Below, one piece after another: positions 7,272 through 28,209 of a stretch of DNA of 64,000 bases. The notes beneath the pieces were generated by a model. It searched no databases. It was given only the letters and a program-made list of their open reading frames with translations, and was not told the DNA's origin. How positions within the stretch are numbered: position 1 is the stretch's first letter; every line of letters begins with the position of its first letter. Source of the stretch: Stappia sp. TSB10P1A (GTDB lineage Bacteria > Pseudomonadota > Alphaproteobacteria > Rhizobiales > Stappiaceae); assembly GCF_900185725.1 (NCBI RefSeq), contig NZ_FYAU01000024.1, positions 1 to 64,000 of the forward strand. Direction: 5' to 3'. Both the position numbers and the translations under genes were made by a program.

Positions 7272-7310
7272 TGCGCCTCGGGGGGCTGTCGGGGCAGGCC
7301 TCCAGCCCTC

Positions 7311-7402
7311 CTGGCAGTCTGTTGGCGGCCCTCCTGGCAGTCTGTTGGCGGCCGTCCCGGTAGTCTGTTGGCAGCCGTCCCGGTAGCCTGTTGGCGGCCG
7401 TC
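7311..7402. repeat. 23-bp tandem repeat array, four units
   Basis: Four head-to-tail 23-base units start at 7311, 7334, 7357 and 7380, each containing GTAGTCTGTTGG or GCAGTCTGTTGG. The last two units share a T variant and the first two a C variant, indicating stepwise duplication. The array ends 20 bases before the tRNA-Ala promoter. No spacers are present, so this is not a CRISPR. Confidence 0.8.
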
Positions 7403-7422
7403 CCGGCCGGTGGGGGAAACGC

Positions 7423-7451
7423 TTGACAGGACCGCCCGCCCTCCCCTAAAT
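7423..7451 (+). promoter_or_regulatory. sigma70-type promoter of tRNA-Ala
   Basis: A consensus TTGACA at 7423-7428 and CTAAAT at 7446-7451 are 17 bases apart, with the tRNA starting 20 bases after the -10 box. Spacing and position fit a housekeeping tRNA promoter. Confidence 0.7.
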
Positions 7452-7471
7452 GCCGCTCACGCTCGACGAGC

Positions 7472-7547
7472 GGGGCCGTAGCTCAGATGGGAGAGCGCTG
7501 CAATCGCACTGCAGAGGTCAGGGGTTCGATTCCCCTCGGCTCCACCA
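7472..7547 (+). tRNA. tRNA-Ala(CGC)
   Basis: 76 bases fold as a complete cloverleaf: acceptor GGGGCCG / CGGCTCC, D arm GCTC/GAGC, anticodon stem CTGCA/TGCAG with loop ATCGCAC giving anticodon CGC for alanine GCG codons, T stem AGGGG/CCCCT with TTCGATT loop, and an encoded CCA end. It marks the edge of the accessory region that follows. Confidence 0.97.
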
Positions 7548-7741: not shown

Positions 7742-7905
7742 ATGATGACCTGTGCAGAAAACGGCAGGCAGGCAAGGCCGGGCGATCTGGTCACGCGCCT
7801 CGGCGGCAACGAATTCGTCCTGCTGCTCCCCGAGACCACCCTTTCCGAGGCCCTCGCACAGGCGATTCGCTGCAAGGTGGCCGTGTCGCCGCTAACCGTG
7901 GGCGA
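7742..7905 (+). pseudogene. truncated GGDEF-domain (diguanylate cyclase) remnant
   Basis: The frame from 7781 reads GDLVTRLGGNEFVLLLPET followed by an Ala/Leu-rich helix and VAVSPLTVGDHS. This is the core of a GGDEF domain (G-D-x-x-x-R-x-G-G-D-E-F-x-x-L-L-P), with the catalytic-site Asp replaced by Asn. Neither the N-terminal part of the domain nor the region after the active loop can be found, and the frame ends in the convergent 3' end of the next gene. It is best read as debris of a diguanylate cyclase gene. The rest of 7548-7905 shows nothing else. Confidence 0.65.
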
Positions 7906-10524
7906 TCACTCCGGTTCGCGTCGGGCGACGCTCAGATCGCCCCTTTTCAGCATCAGATAGCGATACATGACCGAGGAGAAATTCTGATTGTCCGCCCCCG
8001 ACGTCATGACGCCCGCAAGCAGGTCGAGATAGTCCTGCGCCCAGCGCGCGGCCCAGGTTGCGGTGTCCTCGTTCGGCAAGGCACCCGCCATGCGCCGCAC
8101 GTCGACCCGCACATCCGTGCCCGACCGCAGGGCCTGCAGCCAGTAGATCGGCACCCCCAGCGCCTGGGCGACCTTCGGCACCGTGTCGAGCAGCGTGCAG
8201 TTCACGCCGAACAGGCTGCCGACCGCCTCGCTCCGGAAGCCGACCCTGGCGTTGGCCTCGGCGGGAAAGTCGGGGGTGGAGAAGACGCTCATCCCGCCTT
8301 TCAGGCATTTGACGATGCGTGCTGCCGCCAGCCGGTCTGTCATTTGAATGATCTCGTAGCTGCGGTTTATGTCCGAATGGCGGGTCTTCGAGCTCACCAG
8401 GAACGCGGTGTTCCGGAAGTGGTTTTCGAGGAAAATCAGGTTCCCGAGCCCAAGATGCGTTCCAACGATCAGCGTGGGAACACGCGACCGCATGCGCTCT
8501 TCCAGCTCGGCGAAGGCCTCGCTCCGCTCGAATGCGAGTTTGGCCTCGGAGCGCACATTGCGAGAGGCGATGACCCGTTGGAGATAGGTCGCGTGCTGCG
8601 CGCGTGCCAGCCACGCTTGCCCGACGCCACCGCCCTCACCCTGAAGCTGCCATGCAATCAGCCCGGCGACCGAGGGCAGGCCCGGTTCGGCCTGCCCCTC
8701 TTCCGCGGCCACGAACAGGTCGCGCAGGTCCTCGCCGCTCACCGGTCGGTAACGGGGATAGGACGGGATGGTCAGTTCGCCCAGGTCATCGTGATGGCCC
8801 AGGAAATGCCTCGAAAGCCTGATGGCGTTGGAAGCGCTCGGCGTCTGCCCGTCCGCCTGGCTGGCGATCAACGCGGGGAGCACCTCCGGACGGCCCATCA
8901 TCCGCAAGTCGCATAGCATCCAGGATTCGAGGGTCAGCGCGCCGGAGCAGACCCGCTCGACGAGAAACGCCGCCCCGCCTTCGGCATCGCCGAATGCGAG
9001 GAACAGGGCATAACGCAGCTTCAATGCCGGCGCATGAGCAGGGTGATGCGCCAGCACGGTCTCGATCGTCGCCAGCGCGCTGTCGAACCGTTCCGTCTCG
9101 AACTCTGCCCGCGCCTTCAGCGCCAGCAGCAGCACATCGCCGAGCGACTGGACGCAGGCGCGCCTGGTGCGCTCCACCATCTCCGCCCATGCGCTCGTGC
9201 CCATGGCGACCTGCGCCCGCAGCGCATCGATCGTGAACTCGGGAAACCGGCTCTCGGCCCCGGCCAGCAGGTGCTCGAGCCTTGCCATCACAGCGCGCGA
9301 GGGCGCCGTCCCGAAGCCCCACCGCCCCGCGGCCGACACCAGCCGCGTCACATGGTCGAGGATCGAGGGGGCGTGCCTTGCATCCTCGATCAGGAGGTCC
9401 GTGAACCTCTCGATCTCCCCCAGCATCAGCAGCAGATGGGCCAGCGCCCGCCTGACCGCGGTGTGGTCTCTCAAGGCGTCCGAAAGCCCGGCGGCAAAGG
9501 CTTCCGCTTCCTCGATACGCTCGGCGGTGACAAGCCCGTTCAGGACCAGCGCTGCGGCTTCCGGGGAGCCGGTGTCCTGGTGCCAATAGGCGAGCATCCG
9601 CGCATGGGCCTCGTCAGCCCGGCCCTCGTTTCGCAACAGGCGGATCTCCAGCCGCTGCAGCGCCGGAGTGAGTGCCTCCCCTTGCGCGATCTGCGCGTCG
9701 AAGCGGCCCCGCGCGCGGTCGAAGCGGCGCAGGTCGAGGTCCAGCCCGATCCACAGGTCGGCGTGTCGGTGGCGCGAAGCGGACAGCACCGCCTCCACGC
9801 CGCTCATGTCGCCCGCCTGCGTCAGCGTCACCGCCTTTTGCCGCACGAAGCCCTCGTCGTCCGGCCAGCGGTCCAGCGTCGCCTCGCACAGCCGCAAGGC
9901 CGCCGTATGGTCGAGGGCGAACCGCTCCAGCCCGATCGCCTGCATCACGGCCTCGCGGCTGTCGGGCGCCTCCTTCAGCGCCGCCCGCACGGCCGCGAGC
10001 GCGGCCCGTATCTCGCCGGCATCAGCGAGACAGCGCGACGCCTCCACCTGCAAGCTCGCCCGCGCCTGCGGCTGGAGAGCCTCCCACTGTCCCAGCACCC
10101 GCTCGATGATGTCCCGCGCGCCCGACGGGTCGCCGGCACGGCGCAGCGCCACCGCATGGCGCAACTGCGCCTGCCACTCGTCCGGATGCCGCCGCGAAAG
10201 CACGGCCCCGGCGGCGGCGGCCGCGGCGAAGTCCTTCATCCGCGTCAGGAGTTCGACCCTCAAATAGAGCGCCGGCTTGTGCATCGGCTCGGCCGCCAGG
10301 ACCTCCTCGGTCAGCGCCAGGCTCTCGGCGTGCTCGCCGTTCCAGTGCAGCGACACCGCCAGTTCGTACTTGATCAAAAGGCTGGCGGGATGCCGCCGCA
10401 TCCCCTCGCGCAAGAGGCGGATGCTCTCGTCGACGCGCCGGCCCTGCCGCAGCACATTCCCCTGCCTTGCGACCGCCGCCGGGTCGTCGGGCTCGCACCT
10501 TGCGGCGTCTGGCGTGTCTGACAT
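7906..10524 (-). CDS. TPR protein with C-terminal LpxL/HtrB-like acyltransferase domain
   Basis: An 872-residue protein. Residues 1 to about 600 are helical, Ala/Leu/Arg-rich and show TPR-like periodicity (for example ALTEEVLAAEPMHKPALYLR). The last 200 residues look like a lysophospholipid-acyltransferase fold: VGTHLGLGNLIFL at about 687-699, LKGGMSVFSTPDF at about 741-753, and LLDTVPKVAQALGVPIYW, in the order found in LpxL/HtrB. In the H-x4-D/E active-site motif the acidic residue is replaced by Asn (His690, Asn695), so catalysis is uncertain. It is the last gene of the six-gene cluster, 30 bases after the carbamoyltransferase. The acyltransferase assignment is inference from motif order; a carrier-binding or scaffold role is possible. 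Confidence 0.6.
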   Translation of the reverse strand: MSDTPDAARCEPDDPAAVARQGNVLRQGRRVDESIRLLREGMRRHPASLLIKYELAVSLHWNGEHAESLALTEEVLAAEPMHKPALYLRVELLTRMKDFAAAAAAGAVLSRRHPDEWQAQLRHAVALRRAGDPSGARDIIERVLGQWEALQPQARASLQVEASRCLADAGEIRAALAAVRAALKEAPDSREAVMQAIGLERFALDHTAALRLCEATLDRWPDDEGFVRQKAVTLTQAGDMSGVEAVLSASRHRHADLWIGLDLDLRRFDRARGRFDAQIAQGEALTPALQRLEIRLLRNEGRADEAHARMLAYWHQDTGSPEAAALVLNGLVTAERIEEAEAFAAGLSDALRDHTAVRRALAHLLLMLGEIERFTDLLIEDARHAPSILDHVTRLVSAAGRWGFGTAPSRAVMARLEHLLAGAESRFPEFTIDALRAQVAMGTSAWAEMVERTRRACVQSLGDVLLLALKARAEFETERFDSALATIETVLAHHPAHAPALKLRYALFLAFGDAEGGAAFLVERVCSGALTLESWMLCDLRMMGRPEVLPALIASQADGQTPSASNAIRLSRHFLGHHDDLGELTIPSYPRYRPVSGEDLRDLFVAAEEGQAEPGLPSVAGLIAWQLQGEGGGVGQAWLARAQHATYLQRVIASRNVRSEAKLAFERSEAFAELEERMRSRVPTLIVGTHLGLGNLIFLENHFRNTAFLVSSKTRHSDINRSYEIIQMTDRLAAARIVKCLKGGMSVFSTPDFPAEANARVGFRSEAVGSLFGVNCTLLDTVPKVAQALGVPIYWLQALRSGTDVRVDVRRMAGALPNEDTATWAARWAQDYLDLLAGVMTSGADNQNFSSVMYRYLMLKRGDLSVARREPE

Positions 10525-10554
10525 TGAGCGACTTCTTGCCTTGGCTGCAGCGGC

Positions 10555-12243
10555 TCAGGCCGCTGCCGACTTCTCGATCAAGGTGGTCTCGATCACCACC
10601 GCGGACAGTCCCGAGGTCATGAACACCGCCAGCGCATCCTCGGGCGAATGGACGATCGGCTTGCCCATGATGTTGAAGCTGGTGTTGAGGACGATCGGAA
10701 CGCCGGTCCGCTCGCCGAAGCATCGCACCACCCCATGCATCCACGGCGCATTGTCCGGCGAGACGGTCTGCAGCCGCCCGGTGCCGTCGGCATGGACGAC
10801 CGCCGGCACCTGCCGGGCCCTCGCCTCGCGCCAGCGCAGCGTCATCGACATATAGGGCGAAGGCTGGGCACGCTCGAACCAGTCCGCGACATCCTCCTCG
10901 CAGACCACCGGCGCGAAGGGGCGATAGGGCTCGCGCCCCTTTACCAGCCGGTTGATCCGGTCCTTCATGTCGGCCGGACGCGGATCGGCCAGGATCGAGC
11001 GGTTGCCGAGCGCACGCGGACCGAACTCCGCCCGCCCGCGCATCACGCCGACGATCTTTCCCTCGGCCAGCAGCTCGGCGACCCGGTCCTCGCTGCCCGC
11101 CGAAGCATCGCTCACCCGCGCGATGCCGCCGAGAGCGTCCAGCCGCGACAGCGCGGCCGTGGCGGCGACCGACCCCAGATACGGCGTCGCCGCAAGCACA
11201 GGCACGCAGGGTGTCTTCGTCGTTTCCATCCAGCTCAGCAGCGCCGCGCCGACCGCATTGCCGTCGTCGGCGGGCGCGGGCGGCACGAACAGCCGGTCAT
11301 AGCCCATGCGCCCGGCGATCGTGCCATTATAGGAGGAGTTGAGCGCGCAGCCGCCGCCAAGGATCAGGTTTCCGTCCGACCCGTCCGCGCTTTCGCACAG
11401 GATCCGGTCGGCGAGGATCGCATAGGCGGCCTGCCCGCTCGCCGCAAGGTCCGCCGCGCTCATCAAGGGCTCGCCCGCCGCGCGGGCGAAGGTCCTGATC
11501 CTGGCAGCAAGGGGCAGCAGCGCCTCCCGCTCGACGAAGCGCAGGCGGCCCCGGTCCACCTCCAGCAGCGACGTCAGCGCATCGCGGATCTCCGGCCGGA
11601 CCGTCCCATAGGCGGCAAGCCCCATCACCTTCCACTCTTCGCCGAGCCGCCAGTCGAAGCCGCAGAGCTGCGTCAGCCAGGCATAGAGCGTTCCAAGGCT
11701 GCCGGGCCCCCACGAGCGCCAGCGGCGCTTGAGCACCCGCTCGCGCAGGTCGAACATCGACACGGCGCCGGCCTCGCCCTCCCCGTCGATGACGAGGCAG
11801 GAGGCGGTGTCGACGGGGGCGAAGGCGCAGGCCGTCACCGCATGGCACAGGTGATGGTCGTAGCGGCGGACCTCCGGCATCTGCTGCGCGAGGCCCAGCC
11901 GCAGCAGCGAGGCGCCCGCGTGCGTGTTGATCCCGGCCTGCAGCTCCCGCAGCCACAGGGCATCGGTCACGGGCAGCAGGTCGCCCATCAGCTCGACCGG
12001 CAGCTCCGCCTTGGCCTTCTTCCACGAGGTCGCGACCGCCAGCGTGTCGGAGCCGAAGTCGAAGCCGATCTGGCTCAAGGCGGAGGCAAGATGCGGCACA
12101 TGGTCGGGGGCAATGCCCCAGGCCCGCTTGTCCTGCAGGAAGCGCTCGCTCGCCTCGGCGAAGACGAGCTCCCCGCCGGCAGTAACGATCGCCAGCGCCG
12201 GGTCGTGCCCGGAGGTGGAAAGCCCGAGGTGAAACAGCGCCAT
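10555..12243 (-). CDS. NodU/CmcH-type O-carbamoyltransferase
   Basis: A 562-residue protein of normal family length. The N-terminal Kae1-like half shows the LGLSTSGHDPALAIV opening and a metal-binding DHHLCHA motif at about 129-135. The C-terminal YrdC-like half has RAEFGPRALGNRSILADPR and VLNTSFNIMGKPIVHSPEDA-type signatures. The family uses carbamoyl phosphate and ATP to carbamoylate a hydroxyl, as in Nod factors, cephamycin and tobramycin. The start at 12243 overlaps the ACP stop as TGATG, indicating translational coupling. Its likely target is a hydroxyl on the product of this cluster (inference). Confidence 0.9.
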   Translation of the reverse strand: MALFHLGLSTSGHDPALAIVTAGGELVFAEASERFLQDKRAWGIAPDHVPHLASALSQIGFDFGSDTLAVATSWKKAKAELPVELMGDLLPVTDALWLRELQAGINTHAGASLLRLGLAQQMPEVRRYDHHLCHAVTACAFAPVDTASCLVIDGEGEAGAVSMFDLRERVLKRRWRSWGPGSLGTLYAWLTQLCGFDWRLGEEWKVMGLAAYGTVRPEIRDALTSLLEVDRGRLRFVEREALLPLAARIRTFARAAGEPLMSAADLAASGQAAYAILADRILCESADGSDGNLILGGGCALNSSYNGTIAGRMGYDRLFVPPAPADDGNAVGAALLSWMETTKTPCVPVLAATPYLGSVAATAALSRLDALGGIARVSDASAGSEDRVAELLAEGKIVGVMRGRAEFGPRALGNRSILADPRPADMKDRINRLVKGREPYRPFAPVVCEEDVADWFERAQPSPYMSMTLRWREARARQVPAVVHADGTGRLQTVSPDNAPWMHGVVRCFGERTGVPIVLNTSFNIMGKPIVHSPEDALAVFMTSGLSAVVIETTLIEKSAAA

Positions 12244-12494
12244 CAGGCTGCCATGCGGTCCGCTATCGACCGTGCGAAGTCGCCGAGCGTGTCGTACTGG
12301 AAGATCTCGGCGGGATCGACCTCCACGTCGAAACGATCCTCGACCTCGCCGCACACCAGAACGGCATCGATCGATTGCAGGCCGAGATCCGACAGGGACA
12401 TGTCCATCCGGATCTGGTCGGCCGAGGTCTTGGTCCGCTGGGCAACCTGTTCGCGAAGGAAGGAAAACAGGCGCGATTCGCTGGTGTCAGTCAT
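12243..12494 (-). CDS. free-standing acyl carrier protein
   Basis: An 83-residue acidic protein with the phosphopantetheine site DLGLQSIDAV, whose Ser carries the prosthetic arm, followed by the typical helix EVEDRFDVEVDPAEIF. The start at 12494 was chosen over an upstream ATG because the ACP fold begins here; it overlaps the end of the P450 gene by 8 bases and the carbamoyltransferase start by one base. It is the probable carrier on which the cluster's acyl chain is held, loaded by the adjacent acyl-AMP ligase. Confidence 0.9.
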   Translation of the reverse strand: MTDTSESRLFSFLREQVAQRTKTSADQIRMDMSLSDLGLQSIDAVLVCGEVEDRFDVEVDPAEIFQYDTLGDFARSIADRMAA

Positions 12495-14676
12495 GATTGG
12501 GCTCTGTTCTGCTGAAGATGCATGGAAGCGTGCTGAGGGCGACGGTTTCCGACATGGGGTGATAGCGGTGCGCCTGGACGTCGAGCGCAAGGTTCGGGAA
12601 GCGGCGGAAAATTGCGGGAATCGCCTGCTTGAGGACCATCATGGAGAGCGTTGCGCCGACACAGCGGTGCAGACCCTTGCCGAAGGAAACATGTCCCTTG
12701 CCGGCGGGAGCCTGCCGGTTCAACACATGCACGTTCAGCCGCGCCGTGTCGCCGGCCTTCATCGCCAGATCCCCGAGGGACAGGTCGGTGCGGGCGACGC
12801 GGTAGATGAATTTCGGGCCGCTGCAACGCGCGACCAGCTCGTCGATATGCGCCTCGACCCACGCCTGCCCGCTCGCCGCACTGCGCTCCTCGGCGGGCTG
12901 CGACAGGATCGACAGCAGGGCATTCGACAGCGTGTGCGACAGGTTGAAGCTGGCCCCATACAGCACCAGCACCACCGCCTTGAGATCCGCCTCGTCGAAG
13001 CCCGCCGGCGCATCGGCAACCAGATGCTCCAGCAGCGACGGCGGCCCGTCGGATGCGGCAGGCACCTGCATCAGGGACAGCGCCTCGGTGAAGACCGCCT
13101 GCACGCGCCGCAGCTTGCGCATCGAAAGCCAGGGCTCCAGCACGTCCTGCAGATGCGGCGCGATGGCATCGAACCGTTGCGGATCTTGGCAGGAGATCCC
13201 GAGAATGCGCGTCATGATGCTCCTGCGGAGCGGATCGGCATAGTCCGACACCAGGTCCGGCCGCGTCGTCGCCGAAAGCGCCTGCAGCGCCGCGTCCAGG
13301 GCCGCATCGACGACGCCGCGCCAGGGCGCGAGCTGCGCCGCGCCCAGGAAGCGCATCAGGACCTGCTTGAGCGCCTCGTGCCGCGCACCGTCCATGAAGA
13401 ACAGGGCGTTTCGCGCGATCCGTGTCGCCTCGCCCATGTCCTCGCCGCTCGCCTGCGACAGCAGCGTCAGATGGCTTTCCATCGGCGGCGGCGCGAAGGC
13501 GTCGTTGTCCCGCAGGATCCGGTGGGCGCTGCCCATGTCGCGGATGTCGCAAAGGCGCGCGCTCATCCGCCGCGAGGTCTTGCCGATGGAGCACGGCAGC
13601 GCCGTGGGGGCCTGCATCATCGGCGTCACCACGAAGCGGCATTCGTCGGTCTTGAGGGTGATGTCGGGAAAGGTCCGCGCCAGGATCGGGATCGCCGTCT
13701 CGATCAGCATTTCGCTGAGGAACACCCCGGGGCATCTGTGCGCGCCGCTGCCGAAGCTCATATGGCTCTGGCGCGTTCCCCTGTCCGCGCGCAGGCTGTC
13801 CGCGCGCAGGCAGGCATTTGCCGCCACGATGTCGACGACAGCGGACTGCCCCTGGTGATACGGGCAACCGGCGACGTCCCTCGCCTCGGTCGCCACCCGG
13901 ACCAGGGTGCGGGTGGACTGGTAGAGGCCGAGCAGCTTCTGGGTCTCCTGCGCTCCCCAGCCGGGCCCTCCCGCATCGGCCCAAAGCTGCGCCGGGCCGC
14001 TGAGCAATCCGTAGAGCGCGAAAGCCAGCGATTGCGTTGCCGAGTTGGAGCCGACCAGCAGGCCGATGACGAAATAGTCCGGCTCCAGCCCGTCCGGCAG
14101 GTCGCCCTTGCGGCGGCGCAGATAGGCCAGCAGGCTTTCGGGCGCGGAACCCTCGCCCTCCCCGGTCTGCGCGCAGGTCGAGACCAGCAGGCTCGCGGCA
14201 CGGGTCAAGGCCTTGAGCGTCGGCAGCGACAGATAGGGTTCCGTCAGCCGCTGCGCGGTTTCGGCGGCTTGAAAATGCTCCCGCGTCGGCGGCATGTCGA
14301 GGCCGAGGATCCGCGGCATGACTTTGAGAAACAGGGGGATCGTCGCATCCCGGACGAGGTCCGGGTCGCGCGCGGTTTTGAGCTCCTCGCAGACGCTGTG
14401 GCACGCCTCTTTCATCAAGGGCCGCCACGGCGCCAGGCCCGACTGGCTGAAGAACGGGGCGATGACCCGGCGCACCTTGAGATGGGCCTCGCCGCTCATC
14501 GCCACCAGCGTGTTGGCCGACAACCGGCGCAACGCATCGAGGTCGACGCCGCCGCGCTCGGCGATCTCGTCGAGATAGCGGTCGATGCGCGGCAGTTCCA
14601 GGTCGCGCAGCACGGCGACGGCCATCGCCGGCGTCTTCACGAAACTGTCGGGATCGGACCAGACATGCCGTGTCAT
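12487..14676 (-). CDS. tandem two-domain cytochrome P450
   Basis: A 729-residue protein made of two P450-like domains in one frame. Domain 1 (about 1-368) has heme loop FGSGAHRCPG with Cys315; domain 2 (about 370-729) has FGKGLHRCVG with Cys672. Both share RVA segments before the heme loop and similar N-terminal helices. Each is short for a P450. In both, the K-helix ExxR is not recognisable (domain 1 reads QKLLG at that place), and the I-helix acid-alcohol pair is altered (VGSNSAT in domain 1, YGASFN in domain 2). The start at 14676 overlaps the ligase stop as ATGA. Redox partners are not encoded nearby. Reaction unknown; oxidation of an ACP-bound acyl chain is inferred from context. Confidence 0.85.
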   Translation of the reverse strand: MTRHVWSDPDSFVKTPAMAVAVLRDLELPRIDRYLDEIAERGGVDLDALRRLSANTLVAMSGEAHLKVRRVIAPFFSQSGLAPWRPLMKEACHSVCEELKTARDPDLVRDATIPLFLKVMPRILGLDMPPTREHFQAAETAQRLTEPYLSLPTLKALTRAASLLVSTCAQTGEGEGSAPESLLAYLRRRKGDLPDGLEPDYFVIGLLVGSNSATQSLAFALYGLLSGPAQLWADAGGPGWGAQETQKLLGLYQSTRTLVRVATEARDVAGCPYHQGQSAVVDIVAANACLRADSLRADRGTRQSHMSFGSGAHRCPGVFLSEMLIETAIPILARTFPDITLKTDECRFVVTPMMQAPTALPCSIGKTSRRMSARLCDIRDMGSAHRILRDNDAFAPPPMESHLTLLSQASGEDMGEATRIARNALFFMDGARHEALKQVLMRFLGAAQLAPWRGVVDAALDAALQALSATTRPDLVSDYADPLRRSIMTRILGISCQDPQRFDAIAPHLQDVLEPWLSMRKLRRVQAVFTEALSLMQVPAASDGPPSLLEHLVADAPAGFDEADLKAVVLVLYGASFNLSHTLSNALLSILSQPAEERSAASGQAWVEAHIDELVARCSGPKFIYRVARTDLSLGDLAMKAGDTARLNVHVLNRQAPAGKGHVSFGKGLHRCVGATLSMMVLKQAIPAIFRRFPNLALDVQAHRYHPMSETVALSTLPCIFSRTEPNHD

Positions 14677-16370
14677 GATACGGCCTCCGCAACCTGCGCC
14701 GTGTCGAGGCAGATAGCCGCGCCATGCAGGGAGGCCAGATCGTGCGCCACCTGCTGGCGCCGGATCTTGCCGCTGCTGGTGCGCGGCAGCGTGCCGCGGG
14801 GAAGCAGGGCGATGCGATCCAGCCGGACGCCGCAGCTCGCCGCCACCGCCTTGCGGATGCGCGCGGCGAGCGATGCAGGCTCGTCCATCGGCGCGGCGCC
14901 GGCCCGCAATTCGATCAGCAGTTCGGCATGGCCGGGCTTGGAGCCGGCCCCGGCGAAGGCCGCCGCCCCGGACGGGCTGAGGTCGCCGTGTTCGCGCGCG
15001 GCAAGCCATTCGACTTCCGCCGAGGCGACATTGCGGCCGTTGACGATGATGACGTCCTTGGCGCGCCCGGTGATGTGGAGATAGGCGCCGGAAATGCCGC
15101 CAAGGTCACCCGTCCTCAGCCACCTTGTGCCGTCGGGGTCCGTGGCGAAATCCTCGGTCTCCCCGGCATCGCGGCCAAGATACCGCTCGCAGACCGAGGG
15201 TCCTGTCAGCCAGATCTCGCCGGTCGTGCCGTCGGGCAGCGCCTGGCCCGTCTGCGGATCGGCGATCCGGATATGCCCGCGCGTCTCGCCGGACAGAAGG
15301 CAGCCCTCGAAGCCCGCCCAGGGCTCGGGAACCGTGTCCCGGCCGCGCACGGGGCCCGCCTCGCCGGCCGCGAACAGGGTGCATTCCGCCATCCCGTAGC
15401 AGGCGAACACCGCCTCGCGGGCAAGGCCGTTCCCCGCAAAGCGCTGGTGAAACCTTGCCGGCAAGCCGCTCGGCACCGGCTCGGCCCCGCAGAACGCCCT
15501 CTCCCATGAGCTGAGGTCGAGCCCGTGTGCCTCTTCCTCGGAGATCCGGTTGAGGCATTCGAGAAAGGCGAAGGTCGGGCCGCCGCTGATCGTGCCGCGC
15601 CACTCTGAGATCGCCTCCAGCCAGGCGGCCGGGCGGCGGATCATGTCGAACGGGCTCATCTGCACCGAATGCGCGCCCGACAGCAGCGGATAGAGGATGC
15701 AGCCCATCAGCCCCATGTCGTGATAGTGCGGCAGCCAGTTGACCATGACGCTGTCGGCATTCATCCCCCAGAGCGAGCGGATCAGCCCGCAATTGTGGCG
15801 GATCTGGTCGGCCGTCACCGGCACCGCCTTGGGAAAGCGCGTCGAGCCGGAGGTGTGCTGGATCACCGGGAAGACGCAAGGCTCCCCGGCAGCAAAAACC
15901 TCCCGGACCGGGACGGGATCGTCGACGGCCAGCACCGGACAGGCCGGCGCCCCGCTCCGTTCTGCTGATCCGCCGGCCAGTTGCTGTTCCACCATGGCGC
16001 GGTTGTTGGTGGTGCACAGCACCGCCCGCGCGCCGCAGGTCCGCGCCATGCGCGCCAGCCGGCCCGGCGGGTCGGCAGCGCGCGGCGGGGCGACCGGCAC
16101 CAGGGTGCCGCCGCCGAGCAGCGTCGCCACCAGCGCGACCAGAAACTCCTCGCCGGCCGGCAGCGCCACCATCAGCACATGCGGCCCTTCGCCGAGGCAG
16201 CGATCCCAGAGCGCCTGCATCTCCACCGCGCGCGCCGCCAGCTCCGCCCCGCTCAGCGTGCGGTGCCGGCCGCGCCGTCCCAGCACGGTGACCAGCGGCG
16301 CGTCGTGGCGCTGCTCGAGCACCGCCGCGATCTCGCGTTGAAGGCCTGTTTCGCTCACGCGCCTGTCCAT
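14673..16370 (-). CDS. fatty-acyl-AMP ligase (FAAL-like)
   Basis: A 565-residue adenylate-forming enzyme. It shows the A3 loop QHTSGSTRFPKAVP at about 171-184, the FAAL-typical NWLPHYHDMGL at about 211-221, GGPTFAFLECLNRI, YGMAECTLF, the TGDLGG motif, and a C-terminal LPRTSSGKIRR with the catalytic Lys. The WLPxxHDMG motif and local similarity favour FAAL, which makes acyl-adenylate and passes it to a carrier protein rather than to CoA. A stand-alone ACP two genes downstream fits. Start at 16370 lies 26 bases after the radical SAM stop; its ribosome-binding site is weak, and coupling is likely. Confidence 0.88.
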   Translation of the reverse strand: MDRRVSETGLQREIAAVLEQRHDAPLVTVLGRRGRHRTLSGAELAARAVEMQALWDRCLGEGPHVLMVALPAGEEFLVALVATLLGGGTLVPVAPPRAADPPGRLARMARTCGARAVLCTTNNRAMVEQQLAGGSAERSGAPACPVLAVDDPVPVREVFAAGEPCVFPVIQHTSGSTRFPKAVPVTADQIRHNCGLIRSLWGMNADSVMVNWLPHYHDMGLMGCILYPLLSGAHSVQMSPFDMIRRPAAWLEAISEWRGTISGGPTFAFLECLNRISEEEAHGLDLSSWERAFCGAEPVPSGLPARFHQRFAGNGLAREAVFACYGMAECTLFAAGEAGPVRGRDTVPEPWAGFEGCLLSGETRGHIRIADPQTGQALPDGTTGEIWLTGPSVCERYLGRDAGETEDFATDPDGTRWLRTGDLGGISGAYLHITGRAKDVIIVNGRNVASAEVEWLAAREHGDLSPSGAAAFAGAGSKPGHAELLIELRAGAAPMDEPASLAARIRKAVAASCGVRLDRIALLPRGTLPRTSSGKIRRQQVAHDLASLHGAAICLDTAQVAEAVS

Positions 16371-16396
16371 CGGATTGCTTGATCTGGTCGTGGGGG

Positions 16397-17950
16397 TCAG
16401 GCCGGCTGCGCGAGCGGCGCTTCGCGGTCCAGCCGGATCCGCCGGCTGTCCTGCTGCGACAGCCGACCAAGCGAGGTGAAGGAATTGAGGAAGATGGCAA
16501 GCGCGGACGACAGGTCGCGCGCAATCTCGGGGCGCTGGTGCGACAGGTCGTTGACGGCGTCGATGACGCGGCGCGCCCGCGGGTCCCTGGCCGCCTGCCG
16601 CAGCAGCCGCAGCACGCCGGAGGCGCCCTTGCCGGGCGTCACGATGTGATCGCTCGCGCGCAGATGCTCCGGCGGCGGGGCAAGGATCGCGGAAAGGTGC
16701 TCGAAGCGCTTGATCGCGTTGTCCGGCTCGTGCAGCGCCTCGACCAGCCAGATGGCGCCCTCGGCCAGTTGGCGGCGGGTCATCTGCCGCGGCTCGATAT
16801 TGGTCCACAGGTCGCCGCCTGGAAAATTGGTGTTGTCGCGGAAGAGCCGGCCTTCGGCCGCCATCTTCTCGTAGAGCGGGGTGGCGATCGGGGCGACCAG
16901 CACCGACACCCGCAGGTTGACGACCGGCAGGGCCATGCCGAATTCGAACTGGCGCTCGAAGCACCCCAGGTCGTCGTGGTCGAAGCCGACCATCATGCCG
17001 CCGGTCACCGTCAGCCCGCCGGCGACGATGCGGCTGATCTCGGCGACGAGGTCCCGGCGCAGGTTCTGGCGCTTCTTGACCTCCTTCAGCGCCTCCTCGT
17101 TGCTGGTCTCGATGCCGACGAAGATGTCGCGCAGCCCGGCCCTGTTGCACAGCTCGATCAGTTCCGCATCGCGCGACAGGTCGATCGAGGCCTGGGTGGC
17201 GAACTGGACCGGCTGGCGGCCGTCGCGCCCGTTCCAGCCGGCAAGCCCTTCCAGCAGGACGCGGGATTTTTTGCGGTGGACGGTGAAATTGTCGTCCGAC
17301 AGGTTGATGCTGCGATAGCCGAGATCATAGAGCACCTGCGCTTCGGCCAGCACGTTCTCGATCGGCTTGTGCCGCTGCACCCGGCCGAGATACTGGATCA
17401 CGTCGCAGAAGCTGCATTCGAACGGGCAGCCGCGGCTGGTCTGGATCACGCCGCTGATCGCCCGGTCGTTGCGGTAGAGATCCCAGCGCGGCACCGGCGA
17501 GCGTCCGAGATCGGCCTGGCCGCACAGGTAACGCGGCTTCAGGGCGCCGGCGAGAAGGTCGCGGCTCACCTCGCTTGCTACGGTCTCGAACTCGCCGATG
17601 ATCAGGCTGTCCGCCTCGCCGTCGAACTCGCCGGGGGCCAGCGACACATGCGGACCGCCCATGATCACGCGCCGCCCCATGGCGCGGAACCGGCGGGCGA
17701 TCTCGATGCCGCGGGCGGCCTGGGAGACGTTCATGCTGATGGCGACGACGCCGGACGGGTCGTCGAAATCGACCTCCTCGATCATCTCGTCGCACAGCCG
17801 GATGTTGAAATCGCCGTCCAGCAGCGCCGCGACGGTGGTGATCCCCGCCGAGGCCAGCAGGGCATAGCGCTCGTCGATGTTCAGCACCTTGTCGGCCACG
17901 AGCGCCTCACTGCCGAAATCCGGCAATGGAGCGATGAGATATACGTCCAT
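16397..17950 (-). CDS. B12-binding domain radical SAM enzyme
   Basis: A 517-residue protein with an N-terminal cobalamin-binding Rossmann domain (about 1-145, including VVAISMNVSQAARGIEIA and VIMGGPHVSLAPGEF), then a radical SAM core with SRGCPFECSFC (Cys175, Cys179, Cys182) and a C-terminal part resembling DUF4070 (TGGMMVGFDHDDLGCFERQF, then TPLYEKMAAEGRL). Relatives include hopanoid methylase HpnP and other class B methylases. The start at 17950 has AGGA six bases upstream; an ATG 18 codons earlier is less likely. As first gene of the cluster it probably methylates or rearranges an unactivated carbon of the product (inference). Confidence 0.9.
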   Translation of the reverse strand: MDVYLIAPLPDFGSEALVADKVLNIDERYALLASAGITTVAALLDGDFNIRLCDEMIEEVDFDDPSGVVAISMNVSQAARGIEIARRFRAMGRRVIMGGPHVSLAPGEFDGEADSLIIGEFETVASEVSRDLLAGALKPRYLCGQADLGRSPVPRWDLYRNDRAISGVIQTSRGCPFECSFCDVIQYLGRVQRHKPIENVLAEAQVLYDLGYRSINLSDDNFTVHRKKSRVLLEGLAGWNGRDGRQPVQFATQASIDLSRDAELIELCNRAGLRDIFVGIETSNEEALKEVKKRQNLRRDLVAEISRIVAGGLTVTGGMMVGFDHDDLGCFERQFEFGMALPVVNLRVSVLVAPIATPLYEKMAAEGRLFRDNTNFPGGDLWTNIEPRQMTRRQLAEGAIWLVEALHEPDNAIKRFEHLSAILAPPPEHLRASDHIVTPGKGASGVLRLLRQAARDPRARRVIDAVNDLSHQRPEIARDLSSALAIFLNSFTSLGRLSQQDSRRIRLDREAPLAQPA

Positions 17951-18264
17951 CGGCGTCCTGATTCTCGCCGCCCCCCAGGTGGCACCGCACATCATATATG
18001 ACACGCTCGGGATTCGTCAGGGGGCGGGGCATGTTTTTCGCAGCCCGCCCCTTCAGCGCACCGCCCTATCCCTTTGGTCTTTCGGCAGTTCCCGCCCCCA
18101 CGCGGCCGGCGGCAGGATGGCGCCGGCGATCGGCGCCGCGCAGCCGGCGAGCCGCCACGGGCGCATCGATATAACCCGACCGGGAAAATTCCGGCTGGTT
18201 GCACCGACACCCCCTCGTATATGAAGACGGGAAACTGGCAGGCAACGGAAGCGGGGGAGGCCCA

Positions 18265-18930
18265 ATGGGCGCGGACGGCGGACACCCAAGTGAGCCGTGC
18301 ATCTGGCTCGTTCAGGGGCATGATCTCAGCGAAAATGTTCGGGCTTGGTTGCCCGCCGAAAGTTTCGAAAACGATGGCAGAGTGCCCGAACCGATCCTGA
18401 TATCCATCAGGCAAACAAAAGTCGGATGGTTCCTGCCGCAGGACCGCTTCCCAACCGAAAACTATCCGCGTCCCAAGCACTATCCACCGGCGCACGAACA
18501 GCCGGCACCGCAGATCTTCTCCAATGGTTTCATTTTCCTGGCGGGCGAAAGCGCCGAGGTGGTGCGAAGCTTCGACATGGGCGAAGGCGCGCTCTATCCC
18601 GTGCGCCTGTGGCATCCGGACGGCAAGACCTTGATGCCGGGCGCGTTCTTCTATCTGAGCCAGGGCAACAGAAAGGACGCCTTTCTGCAGGAGCGATCCG
18701 ACAAGGAGGGCATCGATGCGATGTCGCAAGGGAGATGGCGCATTGATATCGTTCATTCACGGCCGCCACTGCTGTTCTTCTCGGAAAGCGCGCTCCACGG
18801 GCCGGACATCTGGTGGGACAAGTCGATTTACAAGCACTTCTTCATAAGCGACCGGTTGAAGCGCGCCCTCGATCAGCAACGCCTGTCGAGGGACTGGCAC
18901 CTCGTCCGATGCCCGGTCGTCTTCGACTGA
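18265..18930 (+). CDS. Imm11/DUF1629-like protein (immunity-type domain)
   Basis: A 221-residue cytosolic protein without signal peptide or membrane helix. The C-terminal segment HFFISDRLKRALDQQRLS followed by a short beta strand resembles the end of Imm11 (MXAN_0049, DUF1629) proteins, which occur as immunity partners of polymorphic toxins and as free genes. The ATG at 18265 is four bases after GGGGGAGG and is preferred to an upstream ATG at 18199. No toxin-like gene is adjacent. It is divergent from the biosynthetic cluster and visibly less GC-rich than its neighbours, so it may be a separate acquisition. Function not known. Confidence 0.55.
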   Translation: MGADGGHPSEPCIWLVQGHDLSENVRAWLPAESFENDGRVPEPILISIRQTKVGWFLPQDRFPTENYPRPKHYPPAHEQPAPQIFSNGFIFLAGESAEVVRSFDMGEGALYPVRLWHPDGKTLMPGAFFYLSQGNRKDAFLQERSDKEGIDAMSQGRWRIDIVHSRPPLLFFSESALHGPDIWWDKSIYKHFFISDRLKRALDQQRLSRDWHLVRCPVVFD

Positions 18931-25276: not shown

Positions 25277-26692
25277 TTGCGCCTGTCGCCAGTGACATGG
25301 GCCGAAAGGATCTTGCCCGCCGCCCTGTTTTCGCGCGCGCAGCCGCTGCTTGCCCGTTGCGAGGAGATCCTGAAGGGCGAACCGGACGCCTCCCGCGCCC
25401 AGCGCATGGCGCTCACCGTGTTCGCGATCCGCGTTCTCGGCGCCGTTCTCGCCTATGCCATGCAGGTGATCCTGGCCCGGCTGATGGGGGGATACGAATA
25501 CGGCATCTATGTCGTGGTCTGGACGCTGGTGGTGGTGCTCGGCGTCTTCGCCCCGCTCGGCTTCTCGTCCTCCGTGCTGCGGCTTATCCCCGAATACCGG
25601 GCACAGGGCCGGCACGGCCGGCTCAGCGCCCTGCTGGTCGGCAGCCGGCTCGCCGGCGGGCTCGCCGCCACCGGCATCGCCCTTGCCGGCATCCTTGCGG
25701 TGTGGCTGGCCGGCGACCTGATCGCCTCGCATTACGTGCTGCCGCTGGCGCTCGGCGCCGTCTGCCTGCCGCTGTTCACCATCGGCAGCATCCAGGACGG
25801 CATCGCCCGCGCCCATGACTGGCCGCTGCTGGCAATGCTGCCGACCTTCATCTGGCGGCCGCTGGCTATCCTCGTCGGCCTCGCCGCCGCCGCCTTCGCC
25901 GGCATCCCGGCGACCGCGACCAATGCCTGCATCGTCACCATCCTCGCCACTTGGGGAGTAACGCTCGCCCAGATGCTGGTGCTGTCCCGCGCCCTGCCGC
26001 GCGAGCCCGGCGCCCGCCCGGCGCGCGGCGACTGGACCTATCGCGACTGGCTGCGCCTCTCGCTGCCGATCCTGCTGGTCGAGGGTTTCTTCCAACTGAT
26101 CACCAGCGCCGATGTGGTCATGGTCAGCCTGTGGGAGAGCCCGCAGCAGGTGGCGATCTATTTCGCCGCCTCCAAGACGCCGGCGCTTGCCCATTTCGTC
26201 TATTTCGCCGTGCGCTCGGCCAGCGCCCACCGCTATTCCCGTCTCTACCACGGCGGCTCGCGCGACGAGCTCGGCAGCTTTGTCCACGACACCGCCCGCT
26301 GGACCTTCTGGCCGACCCTGGCCCTGTGCGCCCTCTTGGTGCCGGCCGGGCCCCTGCTGCTGTCGCTGTTCGGCCCCGGCTTCCTCGCCGGTTATCCCGC
26401 GATGCTCATCCTGCTCGCCGGCGTCCTCGCCCGCGCCTCCGTCGGCCCCGCCGACGCCCTGCTGACCATGGCCGACCAGCAGGGCCGCTGCGCGCGGACC
26501 TATGTCCTTGCTTTTTCTATCAATATCGCGCTCAACGTCACGCTGATCCCGCTGCTCGGGATCGATGGCGCGGCCATCGCCACCGCCGCCGCCATGGTCT
26601 TCGAGGCCGGCGCCCTGCGTCATCAGGCCCGCCGGCATCTGGGCGTCGATCCGTTTATCCTCGGCGCCAGACCGGGCCGGACCGCACCGTGA
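25277..26692 (+). CDS. MOP-family polysaccharide flippase (Wzx-like)
   Basis: A 471-residue integral membrane protein with about 12 to 14 hydrophobic segments. The segment YAMQVILARLMGGYEYGIY and the later FSINIALNVTLIPLLGIDGA are typical of oligosaccharide flippases of the MOP superfamily, which move lipid-linked sugars across the inner membrane. The start is a TTG at 25277, nine bases after AGAGGAG; no nearby ATG fits as well. The CelD-like gene follows on the same strand, suggesting an exopolysaccharide unit, but no glycosyltransferase is in view. Confidence 0.82.
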   Translation: MRLSPVTWAERILPAALFSRAQPLLARCEEILKGEPDASRAQRMALTVFAIRVLGAVLAYAMQVILARLMGGYEYGIYVVVWTLVVVLGVFAPLGFSSSVLRLIPEYRAQGRHGRLSALLVGSRLAGGLAATGIALAGILAVWLAGDLIASHYVLPLALGAVCLPLFTIGSIQDGIARAHDWPLLAMLPTFIWRPLAILVGLAAAAFAGIPATATNACIVTILATWGVTLAQMLVLSRALPREPGARPARGDWTYRDWLRLSLPILLVEGFFQLITSADVVMVSLWESPQQVAIYFAASKTPALAHFVYFAVRSASAHRYSRLYHGGSRDELGSFVHDTARWTFWPTLALCALLVPAGPLLLSLFGPGFLAGYPAMLILLAGVLARASVGPADALLTMADQQGRCARTYVLAFSINIALNVTLIPLLGIDGAAIATAAAMVFEAGALRHQARRHLGVDPFILGARPGRTAP

Positions 26693-26870
26693 GCCGCACC
26701 GCATGGCCTGGCCGCCGTGCCAGAGCCTTCGCCCAAATCCCCGCAAGGTTAACCAGTTATCAACGAAACGGGTTCAATTGCCCGCGTCCTGTGGCATCTT
26801 CCGGGCGTGCTGCCGGCGACTGCCCCCGCGATGGGTCGGGCGCGCCGGGCCGGCGGCCGAAGGAACCGGC

Positions 26871-28166
26871 ATGGCGATCGCCGAGAACAGCAGGGCAAGC
26901 AGCGCGCGCTCGGGCGGGCCGGCCCTGCGCGCCCTGGAAATCCCCGCGCGCCGCCGCAAGGATCCCCGCACTCCCGCCCCTGGTGCGCCTGCCGAGATCC
27001 GGCCGGAGCGGGCGATGAGCGCCCTCCTCTTTTCCCCCGCCGAGGCCGCCGCCCATCTGGCGCAATGGCGGGCGCTCGCCGAGACCGCGCTGGAGCCCAA
27101 CCCGTTTTTCGGCCCCGATTTCCTGCTGCCCTATCTCGCCCATATGAAAATCGGCGAGGCGGCCCTCCTCGCCGTGCGCGACGAGGCGGACGGTGCCTTT
27201 CTCGCCCTCGTCCCGTTCCACCGCCGCCGTGCCGGCCTCGCCGTTCCGGTGACCTCCGCCTGCGCCGGCGACTACGGACCGCTCGGCACGCCGCTTCTGG
27301 CCCCTGCCGCCGGCCCCGCCGCCCTGGCGCTGCTGCTGGACGCGGCGGCGCGCGCCTTCGGCGCCTCGACCCTGCTGTTTCCCTGGCTGCGCACCGACGG
27401 GCCGGTCGCCGGCGTGTTCGACGCCCTGGCGCGGGAAAGCGGCTGGCATGTCGCCCGGACGGCGCCCGGGATGCGCGCCGGACATGCCGCCGGCCCGGCC
27501 GGCGAGGAGCAGTTCCGCCTGATCGGCACGCGCCGCCGCAAGACGCTCGAGCGGCAATTGCGCCGGCTGCAGGAAGCGCATCCGCCCGGCCGCTTCGAAA
27601 GCCTGTCGACGGCGCAAGAGGTCGAGGCCGCCTTCGAGCGGTTCCTTGCCCTGGAGGCTTCCGGCTGGAAGGGGCGGCGAGGCACGGCGCTGGCCTGCCG
27701 GCCCGAACGCGCCGCCTTCGCCCGCGCCTTCGTCTCGGCCATGGCCGCGCGCGGGCAGATCCGCATCGACACGCTGGAGGCGGACGGGGTGCCCGCCGCC
27801 ATGCTGGTGACGGTTCGCGACCGCGACCGGGTGTTTGCCTGGAAGATCGCTCATGACGAGCGTCTGGCGCGCTTTTCGCCGGGGGCGCAGCTCGCCCGCC
27901 GGACCATGCGCCGCACGCTCGACGAGGCCGGGGTCTCCGACACCGATTCCCTTGCCATTCCCGATCATCCGATGATCGCGCCGCTGTGGCGCGGCACGGT
28001 TCCCTATGCCACGCTGGTGGTCTCGAAGGGGCCGGCCGGCGCCCTGCGCGGCGCCCTTGTCCGTCTCGACATCGCCGCCGACAGCCACCTGCGGCGGCTG
28101 GCGCGCGCCGCGCTCGCCCGCCTGCGCAGGATTCGCCCCCGAGACGGCAAGATCGGCAGGGACTGA
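26871..28166 (+). CDS. GNAT-family acyltransferase, CelD/BcsL-like
   Basis: A 431-residue protein. After a 50-residue Arg/Ala-rich lead-in, the main part resembles BioF2/CelD-like GNAT proteins: NPFFGPDFLLPYLA, FRLIGTRRRKTLERQLRRL, FLALEASGWKGRRGTAL and the C-terminal AWKIAHDERLARFSPGAQL. Such proteins are found with cellulose or other exopolysaccharide genes. The ATG at 26871 has AGGAA six bases upstream; an alternative ATG at 27015 would start at the domain itself. Follows the flippase by 178 bases. Confidence 0.75.
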   Translation: MAIAENSRASSARSGGPALRALEIPARRRKDPRTPAPGAPAEIRPERAMSALLFSPAEAAAHLAQWRALAETALEPNPFFGPDFLLPYLAHMKIGEAALLAVRDEADGAFLALVPFHRRRAGLAVPVTSACAGDYGPLGTPLLAPAAGPAALALLLDAAARAFGASTLLFPWLRTDGPVAGVFDALARESGWHVARTAPGMRAGHAAGPAGEEQFRLIGTRRRKTLERQLRRLQEAHPPGRFESLSTAQEVEAAFERFLALEASGWKGRRGTALACRPERAAFARAFVSAMAARGQIRIDTLEADGVPAAMLVTVRDRDRVFAWKIAHDERLARFSPGAQLARRTMRRTLDEAGVSDTDSLAIPDHPMIAPLWRGTVPYATLVVSKGPAGALRGALVRLDIAADSHLRRLARAALARLRRIRPRDGKIGRD

Positions 28167-28209
28167 GACGGCGACGTTACAGCGCGGGCATCATGAAAGC
28201 CGGCGCCGC

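Follow-up and report, generated by a model that had tools for sequence, protein, structure and literature searches.

We analyzed a 64,000-nucleotide stretch of the Stappia sp. TSB10P1A genome (contig NZ_FYAU01000024.1, hereafter the window) and found a run of six genes on its minus strand, from position 17950 to 7906, that encode a cobalamin-binding-type radical SAM enzyme, a fatty acyl-AMP ligase (FAAL), a tandem cytochrome P450, a free acyl carrier protein (ACP), an O-carbamoyltransferase and a TPR protein that ends in an acyltransferase-like (LPLAT) domain. We consider it probable (roughly 0.6) that these genes specify a dedicated acyl-ACP assembly line, which would build a modified fatty acid on its carrier and hand it to an acceptor. 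Comparison with related loci shows that fewer than six genes make up the conserved part, and that an acyl-ACP core combined with an interchangeable transfer enzyme describes the locus better.

A reading made from the sequence alone had claimed six same-strand genes of these families, and all six are present, with Pfam, NCBIfam or profile matches. The first Pfam and NCBIfam scans were run on the longest open reading frames (ORFs), some of which include an untranslated lead; the FAAL and the P450 were rescanned from their proper starts. The radical SAM protein (class B-like, 517 residues, 16397..17950, minus strand as for all six) matches Radical_SAM (PF04055) at 7.5e-15, with 55.9 bits against a cut-off of 29.5, and DUF4070 at 4.1e-6, and carries the CxxxCxxC motif in RGCPFECSFCD. 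Its cobalamin domain matches B12-binding (PF02310) at 7.4e-5 and 23 bits, below the cut-off of 32.1, and several NCBIfam models of B12-radical SAM enzymes match far below their cut-offs. The FAAL (565 residues, 14673..16370), which has no carrier domain of its own, matches AMP-binding at 2.1e-47; FAAL-type models lead its NCBIfam matches, none of them above cut-off. Among solved structures its 18 closest relatives (best 5e-70) carry FAAL/FadD labels or are polyketide synthase (PKS) or nonribosomal peptide synthetase (NRPS) domains, four of them bearing the label "acyl-CoA synthase" from their depositors, and the next solved relative is a malonyl-CoA synthetase at 1.3e-18. By sequence the ligase is closer to FAALs than to acyl-CoA synthetases. 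The tandem P450 (729 residues, 12487..14676) comprises two P450-like domains, and the ACP (83 residues, 12243..12494; Pfam PP-binding 3.6e-13) has its serine in GLQSID.

The carbamoyltransferase is of the NodU/CmcH type (562 residues, 10555..12243) and matches Carbam_trans_N at 2.0e-26 (93.7 bits, cut-off 24) and Carbam_trans_C at 1.8e-67 (226.6 bits, cut-off 27). Its nearest solved relatives are the novobiocin carbamoyltransferase, GdmN and TobZ, with which DHHLCHA and EFGPRALGNRSILADPR align. NodU is the sole NCBIfam model matched at E ≤ 0.01 (1.1e-46), and its 159.7 bits fall below the equivalog cut-off of 1000; the protein is therefore a member of the family and not NodU, and a Nod factor locus was rejected on the same score. 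A polyketide or NRPS cluster was likewise rejected, as Pfam detects neither a ketosynthase nor a condensation domain among the six proteins. The sixth gene (872 residues, 7906..10524) encodes TPR repeats (Pfam TPR 1.8e-16) N-terminal to the LPLAT domain. The overlaps that the sequence-only reading had listed hold at all three junctions, namely ATGA between the FAAL and P450 genes (14676–14673), 8 bases shared by the P450 and ACP genes (12494–12487) and TGATG between the ACP and carbamoyltransferase genes (12245–12241). The two remaining junctions are gaps of 26 nucleotides (radical SAM to FAAL) and 30 nucleotides (carbamoyltransferase to TPR).

The six genes co-occur elsewhere, a check that the sequence-only reading had proposed for its cluster: three further genomes of the genus (G074, G075 and G079) carry orthologues of all six in unchanged order. 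G074, Stappia indica SBBC 49, is the nearest named organism by its P450 (79% identity). Compared with these three clusters, dN/dS (the ratio of nonsynonymous to synonymous substitution rates) is 0.08–0.40 across all six genes, which indicates purifying selection; the TPR-acyltransferase is the least constrained, at 0.37–0.40. Conserved order and purifying selection rule out a chance run of unrelated genes. In each of the three relatives a segment of 10.2–10.8 kb holds exactly these six genes and no other called gene, with an EamA transporter gene on one side and a GGDEF gene on the other. In G081 the EamA and GGDEF genes lie tail to tail, their stop codons 9 bp apart, and the six genes are missing. 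The site is thus occupied in three relatives and empty in G081, and the six genes come or go as one unit, gain or loss being alike possible.

In the window, both flanking genes are decayed relative to G074, G075, G079 and G081. What remains of the GGDEF gene lies on the plus strand at one edge of the unit (7742..7960; GGDEF Pfam 1.3e-6, 73% identical over 45 residues to the intact L035 gene), and 72 bases of the EamA gene end lie on the minus strand at the other (18091..18162; 83% identity to the G081 EamA end). No EamA protein match was found in window positions 1–26000 at E ≤ 1e-8. These remnants imply that the window cluster stood at the same site. Both genes are missing from 16.5 kb at the folD locus in five further genomes of the genus (L071–L075).

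Searches for the tandem P450 used E-value limits of 1e-3 in the window's family, 1e-30 in the class, and 1e-20 in the phylum and in the family of Pseudotabrizicola (G471); the class, phylum and Pseudotabrizicola-family genome sets are samples of larger groups. Within the window's family, 9 of 87 genomes have orthologues, which are the nine top matches (E from 0 to ~8e-150); the weaker matches there are ordinary P450s. The class sample gave 1 of 385, the window's own, and the family of Pseudotabrizicola 4 of 394, Pseudotabrizicola included; the phylum sample gave 2 of 398, the window's own and a distant single-domain relative, G933. Three loci on genome contigs were reached through peptide patterns, and among plasmids, of which 392 records had any P450 match, two carry the tandem protein (60% and 39%). 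Without double counting and without G933 the total is 16 genomes or plasmids: G000, G074, G075, G079, G002, G072, G001, G003, G073, G471, G472 (Fluviibacterium), the SC52 plasmid, the Phaeobacter G2 plasmid, G659, G813 and G684. Tandem-P450 loci are rare and patchy in distribution.

In 13 of these 16 records the FAAL, P450, ACP and carbamoyltransferase genes are contiguous, in this order and on one strand, with the free ACP inside the same run as the FAAL. The radical SAM gene is intact at 12 of the 16 loci; in G001 and G073 it runs on the opposite strand to the core genes, and in G003 it is broken. No radical SAM match at E ≤ 1e-30 was found on the Phaeobacter G2 plasmid, the plasmid and not the chromosome being searched, or in the whole genomes of G659 and G684. 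The six genes proposed by the sequence-only reading thus do not form the conserved unit, which consists of FAAL, P450, ACP and carbamoyltransferase, usually joined by the radical SAM gene. Some loci are damaged. The G001 P450 reads one in-frame stop, and the G684 locus is in pieces. The decayed cluster of G003 (L041, 6746–15346) has no FAAL match, and its carbamoyltransferase, radical SAM and TPR-LPLAT sequences are broken. In G072 (L039, 6513–13275) the set is doubled and rearranged. It includes a fragment of a FAAL (an ORF of 86 residues) and a P450 shortened to 222 residues, whose domain 1 start runs directly into its domain 2 end; the set looks like two clusters recombined or decaying. A search for NodU-type relatives matched 3 of 289 genomes, self included; in the two others, with relatives at 44–45%, no other core gene was found nearby (one contig is only 4.3 kb).

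One of three transfer-type proteins is present at 14 of the 16 loci. The TPR-LPLAT protein is the last gene at six (G000, G074, G075, G079, G001 and G659), with a decayed copy in G003, a Cys-type thioesterase-like protein is last at five (G471, G002, G072, G073 and Phaeobacter G2), and three (Fluviibacterium, SC52 and G813) have a DltB-like MBOAT together with an SGNH-like protein. The Cys-type protein, of ~330–370 residues, has the look of an alpha/beta-hydrolase with invariant GGNC and HG motifs. Pfam matches nothing in four of the five thioesterase-like proteins and gives only a chance-level match in the fifth (E = 0.25). Weak solved matches of its profile include an NRPS (E = 0.0021) and NocB (E = 0.09); we take the solved relatives to match in their thioesterase parts. 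Against the DltB model the MBOATs of these three records (L034, L044 and L055) reach 4e-32, 3e-32 and 9e-33, all below its cut-off. The label "SGNH-like" refers to GTS and DxxH, motifs generally known for SGNH proteins, read by eye in two sequences; Pfam and the other libraries scanned gave no match to these proteins. The L044 record also carries, at 26091–28565, a TPR protein that ends in a Cu/Zn superoxide dismutase domain (Sod_Cu 1.3e-13) and whose gene adjoins that of a protein whose L034 homologue has a weak PEP-CTERM-like end (0.016, below cut-off).

Trees of the carbamoyltransferase (NodU), FAAL and P450 were built from 14 rows each, leaving out G003 and G684, with stops in best matches entered as X (for example in the G001 P450). 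On the best tree of each protein the last-enzyme state needs 5 changes, against a minimum of 2, and none of the three states forms a single clade on any of them. Shuffled labels needed 6.7–6.8 changes on average and as few as 5 in 9, 20 and 24 of 200 shuffles. Since some shuffles are as low as the observed value, the last-enzyme states are only weakly clustered. Placement is unsure for the long branches of L056 in all three trees, L042 in the FAAL tree and L040 in the P450 tree; together with the limited support from strong branches, these three rows make the exact number of changes unsure. The trees indicate that the last enzyme was exchanged more than once while the core stayed.

The cluster might make a small secreted molecule (an antibiotic, signal or surfactant), with the last protein releasing the chain to a soluble acceptor or as a free acid and no surface lipid or glycan involved. 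The thioesterase-like protein with its invariant GGNC at 5 of the 16 loci would suit such a product, and patchy spread, plasmid carriage and presence or absence as a unit are typical of secondary metabolism. However, six loci have the VexE-like TPR-LPLAT protein and three the DltB-like MBOAT with its SGNH-like partner, whose characterized relatives belong to pathways for surface glycolipids or teichoic acid, and the segment missing from G081 holds the six genes only, with no transporter or regulator. We regard a secreted product as unlikely.

The assignment of the sixth protein comes from its relatives. Four TPR-LPLAT homologues score 31, 47, 55 and 88 bits against the VexE model (6.5e-8 to 5.1e-25), and a profile of seven C-terminal domains matches a profile built from eight LpxL-type proteins at E = 1e-8 with a probability of 95.7% (hhalign), compared with 0.1–0.2% for four unrelated control pairings. 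The acyltransferase end of the window protein is recognized because these relatives match both the VexE model and the LpxL-type profile. His690 and Asp752, 62 residues apart, are invariant in seven of seven family members; the HX4D/E motif of LpxL/LpxM is absent, its sixth residue being N, M or V in all seven. VexE itself, as described in PMC9597891, combines 11 TPR repeats with an LPLAT domain and transfers an acyl group from an acyl-ACP donor to UDP-GlcNAc; it requires His466 and Asp532, 66 residues apart, and where the HX4D/E acid would stand it has Tyr. The comparison supports a resemblance of the sixth protein to VexE, as a putative TPR-LPLAT acyltransferase using acyl-ACP.

A VexE-like TPR-LPLAT gene was also observed in G933 (L060, contig 107, 462–6745), where it lies, on a 6.9-kb contig, beside a single-domain P450 without the Arg of the K-helix ExxR motif. 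The same contig encodes a canonical P450, a small methyltransferase and a protein weakly resembling radical SAM enzymes, which matches NCBIfam at 2.4e-7 without reaching the cut-off and has no match in Pfam. By sequence this is an independent pairing of the ExxR-less P450 type with a VexE-like enzyme, and the contig is possibly a distant sister pathway. The single P450 was not found in 47 other genomes of the order to which G933 belongs.

The tandem P450 of the window matches Pfam p450 at 1.3e-9, and its two halves are 29% identical over 356 residues. The best solved relative of its profile is P450BioI (3EJB, E = 9.8e-32), an entry we take to be the complex with acyl-ACP; P450BioI acts on acyl-ACP. 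Motifs were counted in 12 sequences, leaving out G001 (in-frame stop), G003 and G684 (broken) and SC52 (98% identical to Fluviibacterium); L032 and L037 are the same strain. The heme-ligand motif FGxGxHxCxG is present in both domains of all 12. The Arg of ExxR is missing from both domains in all 12, its place being taken by G, S or L in the first domains and by A, S or V in the second, whereas the matching column of the same alignment has ExxR in 20 of 20 ordinary P450s. In the second domain LYGASFNLSHT, presumably at the oxygen-activating I-helix, is nearly unchanging in 10 of 12. An AlphaFold model of the protein (predicted local distance difference test, pLDDT, 59.5; 4 sequences) underlies none of the claims made here.

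Because the ExxR Arg is missing from both domains, the tandem P450 may not oxidize in the ordinary way. It could be a heme-binding or ACP-docking scaffold like the P450-derived activators rather than an oxygenase, any oxidation being pre-existing, with a hydroxy acid loaded at the start. The missing Arg would agree with this role, as would the want of the acid-alcohol pair that marks the I-helix of ordinary P450s, and among NCBIfam models the protein comes closest to the family of P450-derived glycosyltransferase activators (2.8e-25, short of the cut-off). P450-derived activators lose the heme Cys, however, and here all 12 sequences retain the heme-ligand Cys motif in each of their two domains. 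There is also a precedent for P450s without ExxR in CYP157, judging from a title cited in PMC3990721. A pure scaffold role therefore seems doubtful to us. A conserved ExxR-less P450-like protein in two fused copies would be useful for asking which P450 residues are dispensable.

Under the acyl-ACP assembly-line reading, the FAAL would adenylate a fatty (or hydroxy-fatty) acid and load it onto the small ACP, and the bound chain would be oxidized by the tandem heme-thiolate protein, whose nearest solved relative acts on acyl-ACP. In most lineages the B12-type radical SAM enzyme would alter an unactivated carbon, and the NodU-type enzyme would carbamoylate a hydroxyl made by the oxidation or present beforehand. 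The TPR-LPLAT protein would then move the finished acyl group from the ACP to a hydroxyl of a cytosolic acceptor, in the manner of VexE with UDP-GlcNAc. In other bacteria the same core would feed its acyl-ACP to the DltB-like membrane O-acyltransferase with its SGNH-like partner or, alternatively, to the Cys-type thioesterase-like protein. DltB is singled out as the one MBOAT that uses a carrier-protein instead of a CoA donor (PMC10213974). VexE and DltB take ACP thioesters and the P450 is closest to BioI; an acyl-ACP would therefore be the common intermediate, and these VexE-like, DltB-like and BioI-like lines of analogy support an acyl-ACP product passed to an acceptor. The carbamoylated, oxidized acyl chain of the sequence-only reading remains the best inference from the family calls, as opposed to something directly seen. 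Its proposed transfer to an acceptor has become more specific, with a sixth protein that looks VexE-like and would use acyl-ACP, but elsewhere the last gene is replaced by unrelated enzymes.

Several points weigh against this assembly line. Pfam finds no family at E ≤ 0.5 in the window acyltransferase end alone, the window protein scores E = 0.0024 and 16.1 bits against the VexE model (equivalog cut-off 1200), and the AlphaFold model of the domain has a pLDDT of 32.7 (2 sequences). The three MBOATs score 111.9, 112.3 and 114.1 bits against the DltB equivalog TIGR04091, far from its cut-off of 375, and that of L034 is below the Pfam cut-off as well. The Cys-type profile has only weak solved matches, the best being a chain labelled 3-hydroxyacyl-ACP dehydratase (E = 0.0013), and when the trees are reduced to their strongly supported branches no more than two to four changes per state are forced. 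To these are added the G659 genome with no radical SAM match and the missing ExxR Arg, with what it may mean for oxidation. Finally, FAALs are able to load acids of other kinds, and the carbamoyl group might go to something else than the acyl chain.

The last point can be extended into a separate explanation, in which the carbamoyltransferase spares the acyl chain and the acyl and carbamoyl groups are placed separately on one acceptor, for example a sugar. This is the arrangement of Nod factors, in which acyl transfer and NodU carbamoylation decorate one glycan, and it is the NodU model that the carbamoyltransferase matches, albeit below cut-off. Yet a single carbamoyltransferase clade accompanies an unchanged set of FAAL, P450 and ACP at loci with differing transferases, the enzymes that would set the acceptor, so that a common acyl-ACP substrate fits better than three acceptors; in the window, moreover, the ACP and carbamoyltransferase genes overlap. 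Carbamoylation at a separate position thus appears improbable, and we retain the acyl chain as the favored site.

A broader proposal, which we advance tentatively, is that these loci represent a new class of carrier-protein-based decoration system. In it a constant core, relying on the ExxR-less tandem heme-thiolate protein, would equip an ACP-bound fatty chain with oxidation and a carbamate, and interchangeable, unrelated acyltransferases would attach this one acyl carbamate to surface or soluble acceptors that vary between bacteria. As part of the same tentative reading, the last enzyme would be VexE-like in the cytosol, DltB/DltD-like across the membrane, or Cys-thioesterase-like. The loci offer a natural experiment, one acyl-ACP core coupled to three unrelated transfer enzymes, and across them one donor-making module is linked to a DltB-like MBOAT as well as to a VexE-like TPR-LPLAT protein.

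The surroundings of the cluster in the window include a plus-strand ORF of 243 residues at 18199–18930, conserved in G074, G075 and G081 (68–79%) and with no Pfam match at E ≤ 0.5, and a polysaccharide flippase-type gene at 25313–26692 (Polysacc_synt 4.4e-11), ~7 kb from the cluster. A tmRNA called by ARAGORN at 7282–7547 overlaps a tRNA-Ala and was judged unlikely.

The sequence-only reading knew of no described cluster with this combination, and the full-text literature searched holds no characterized match. By title or start of abstract, with thin coverage of subscription journals, we found no description of a cluster of FAAL, P450, ACP, carbamoyltransferase and radical SAM genes, and the laxaphycin, carbamidocyclophane and Stappia natural-product literature concerns other pathways in the portions consulted. 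As far as searched, the pathway is undescribed; the locus points to a lipid-type pathway in alphaproteobacteria and predicts an acyl carbamate. On a Pseudonocardia alni plasmid (L046, 9218–18895) a type I PKS adjoins another set of FAAL, ACP and P450 genes, together with genes for desaturase, methyltransferase and SDR proteins; no carbamoyltransferase is listed in the 25 kb covered.

Five known systems share parts of this arrangement. Cylindrocyclophane-type clusters use a FAAL start unit, and the carbamidocyclophane/cylindrocyclophane pathways of cyanobacteria resemble the present one in combining a lipid-type product with a dedicated carbamoyltransferase, CabL. They differ in being PKS-based; the activity of CabL awaited confirmation in the carbamidocyclophane paper, and the sections of it consulted do not mention a P450 pair, a radical SAM enzyme or a TPR-LPLAT protein for that pathway. 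The Nod factor genes likewise unite carbamoyl and acyl decoration in one system, and the NodU model is matched here; the six genes differ in scoring below its cut-off and in lacking a chitin-oligosaccharide synthase and NodA. P450BioI is the best solved relative of the window P450 by profile, but the window protein consists of two fused domains without the ExxR Arg, and no biotin gene is among the six.

VexE shares with the sixth protein the TPR repeats followed by a divergent LPLAT domain, a His with a downstream Asp 62–66 residues away, and the replacement of the HX4D/E acid. The window protein nevertheless lies far below the VexE model cut-off, the six genes include no capsule, glycosyltransferase or export gene, and the donor here would come from a dedicated FAAL and ACP. 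The Dlt system differs in several respects: the acid loaded here is presumably fatty and not D-Ala, the P450, carbamoyltransferase and radical SAM enzyme are extra, the DltB cut-off is not reached, and the window cluster has no MBOAT. In Fluviibacterium, SC52 and G813, on the other hand, the likeness extends to four components, an adenylating enzyme, a separate carrier, a DltB-like MBOAT and an SGNH-like protein, comparable to DltA, DltC, DltB and DltD.

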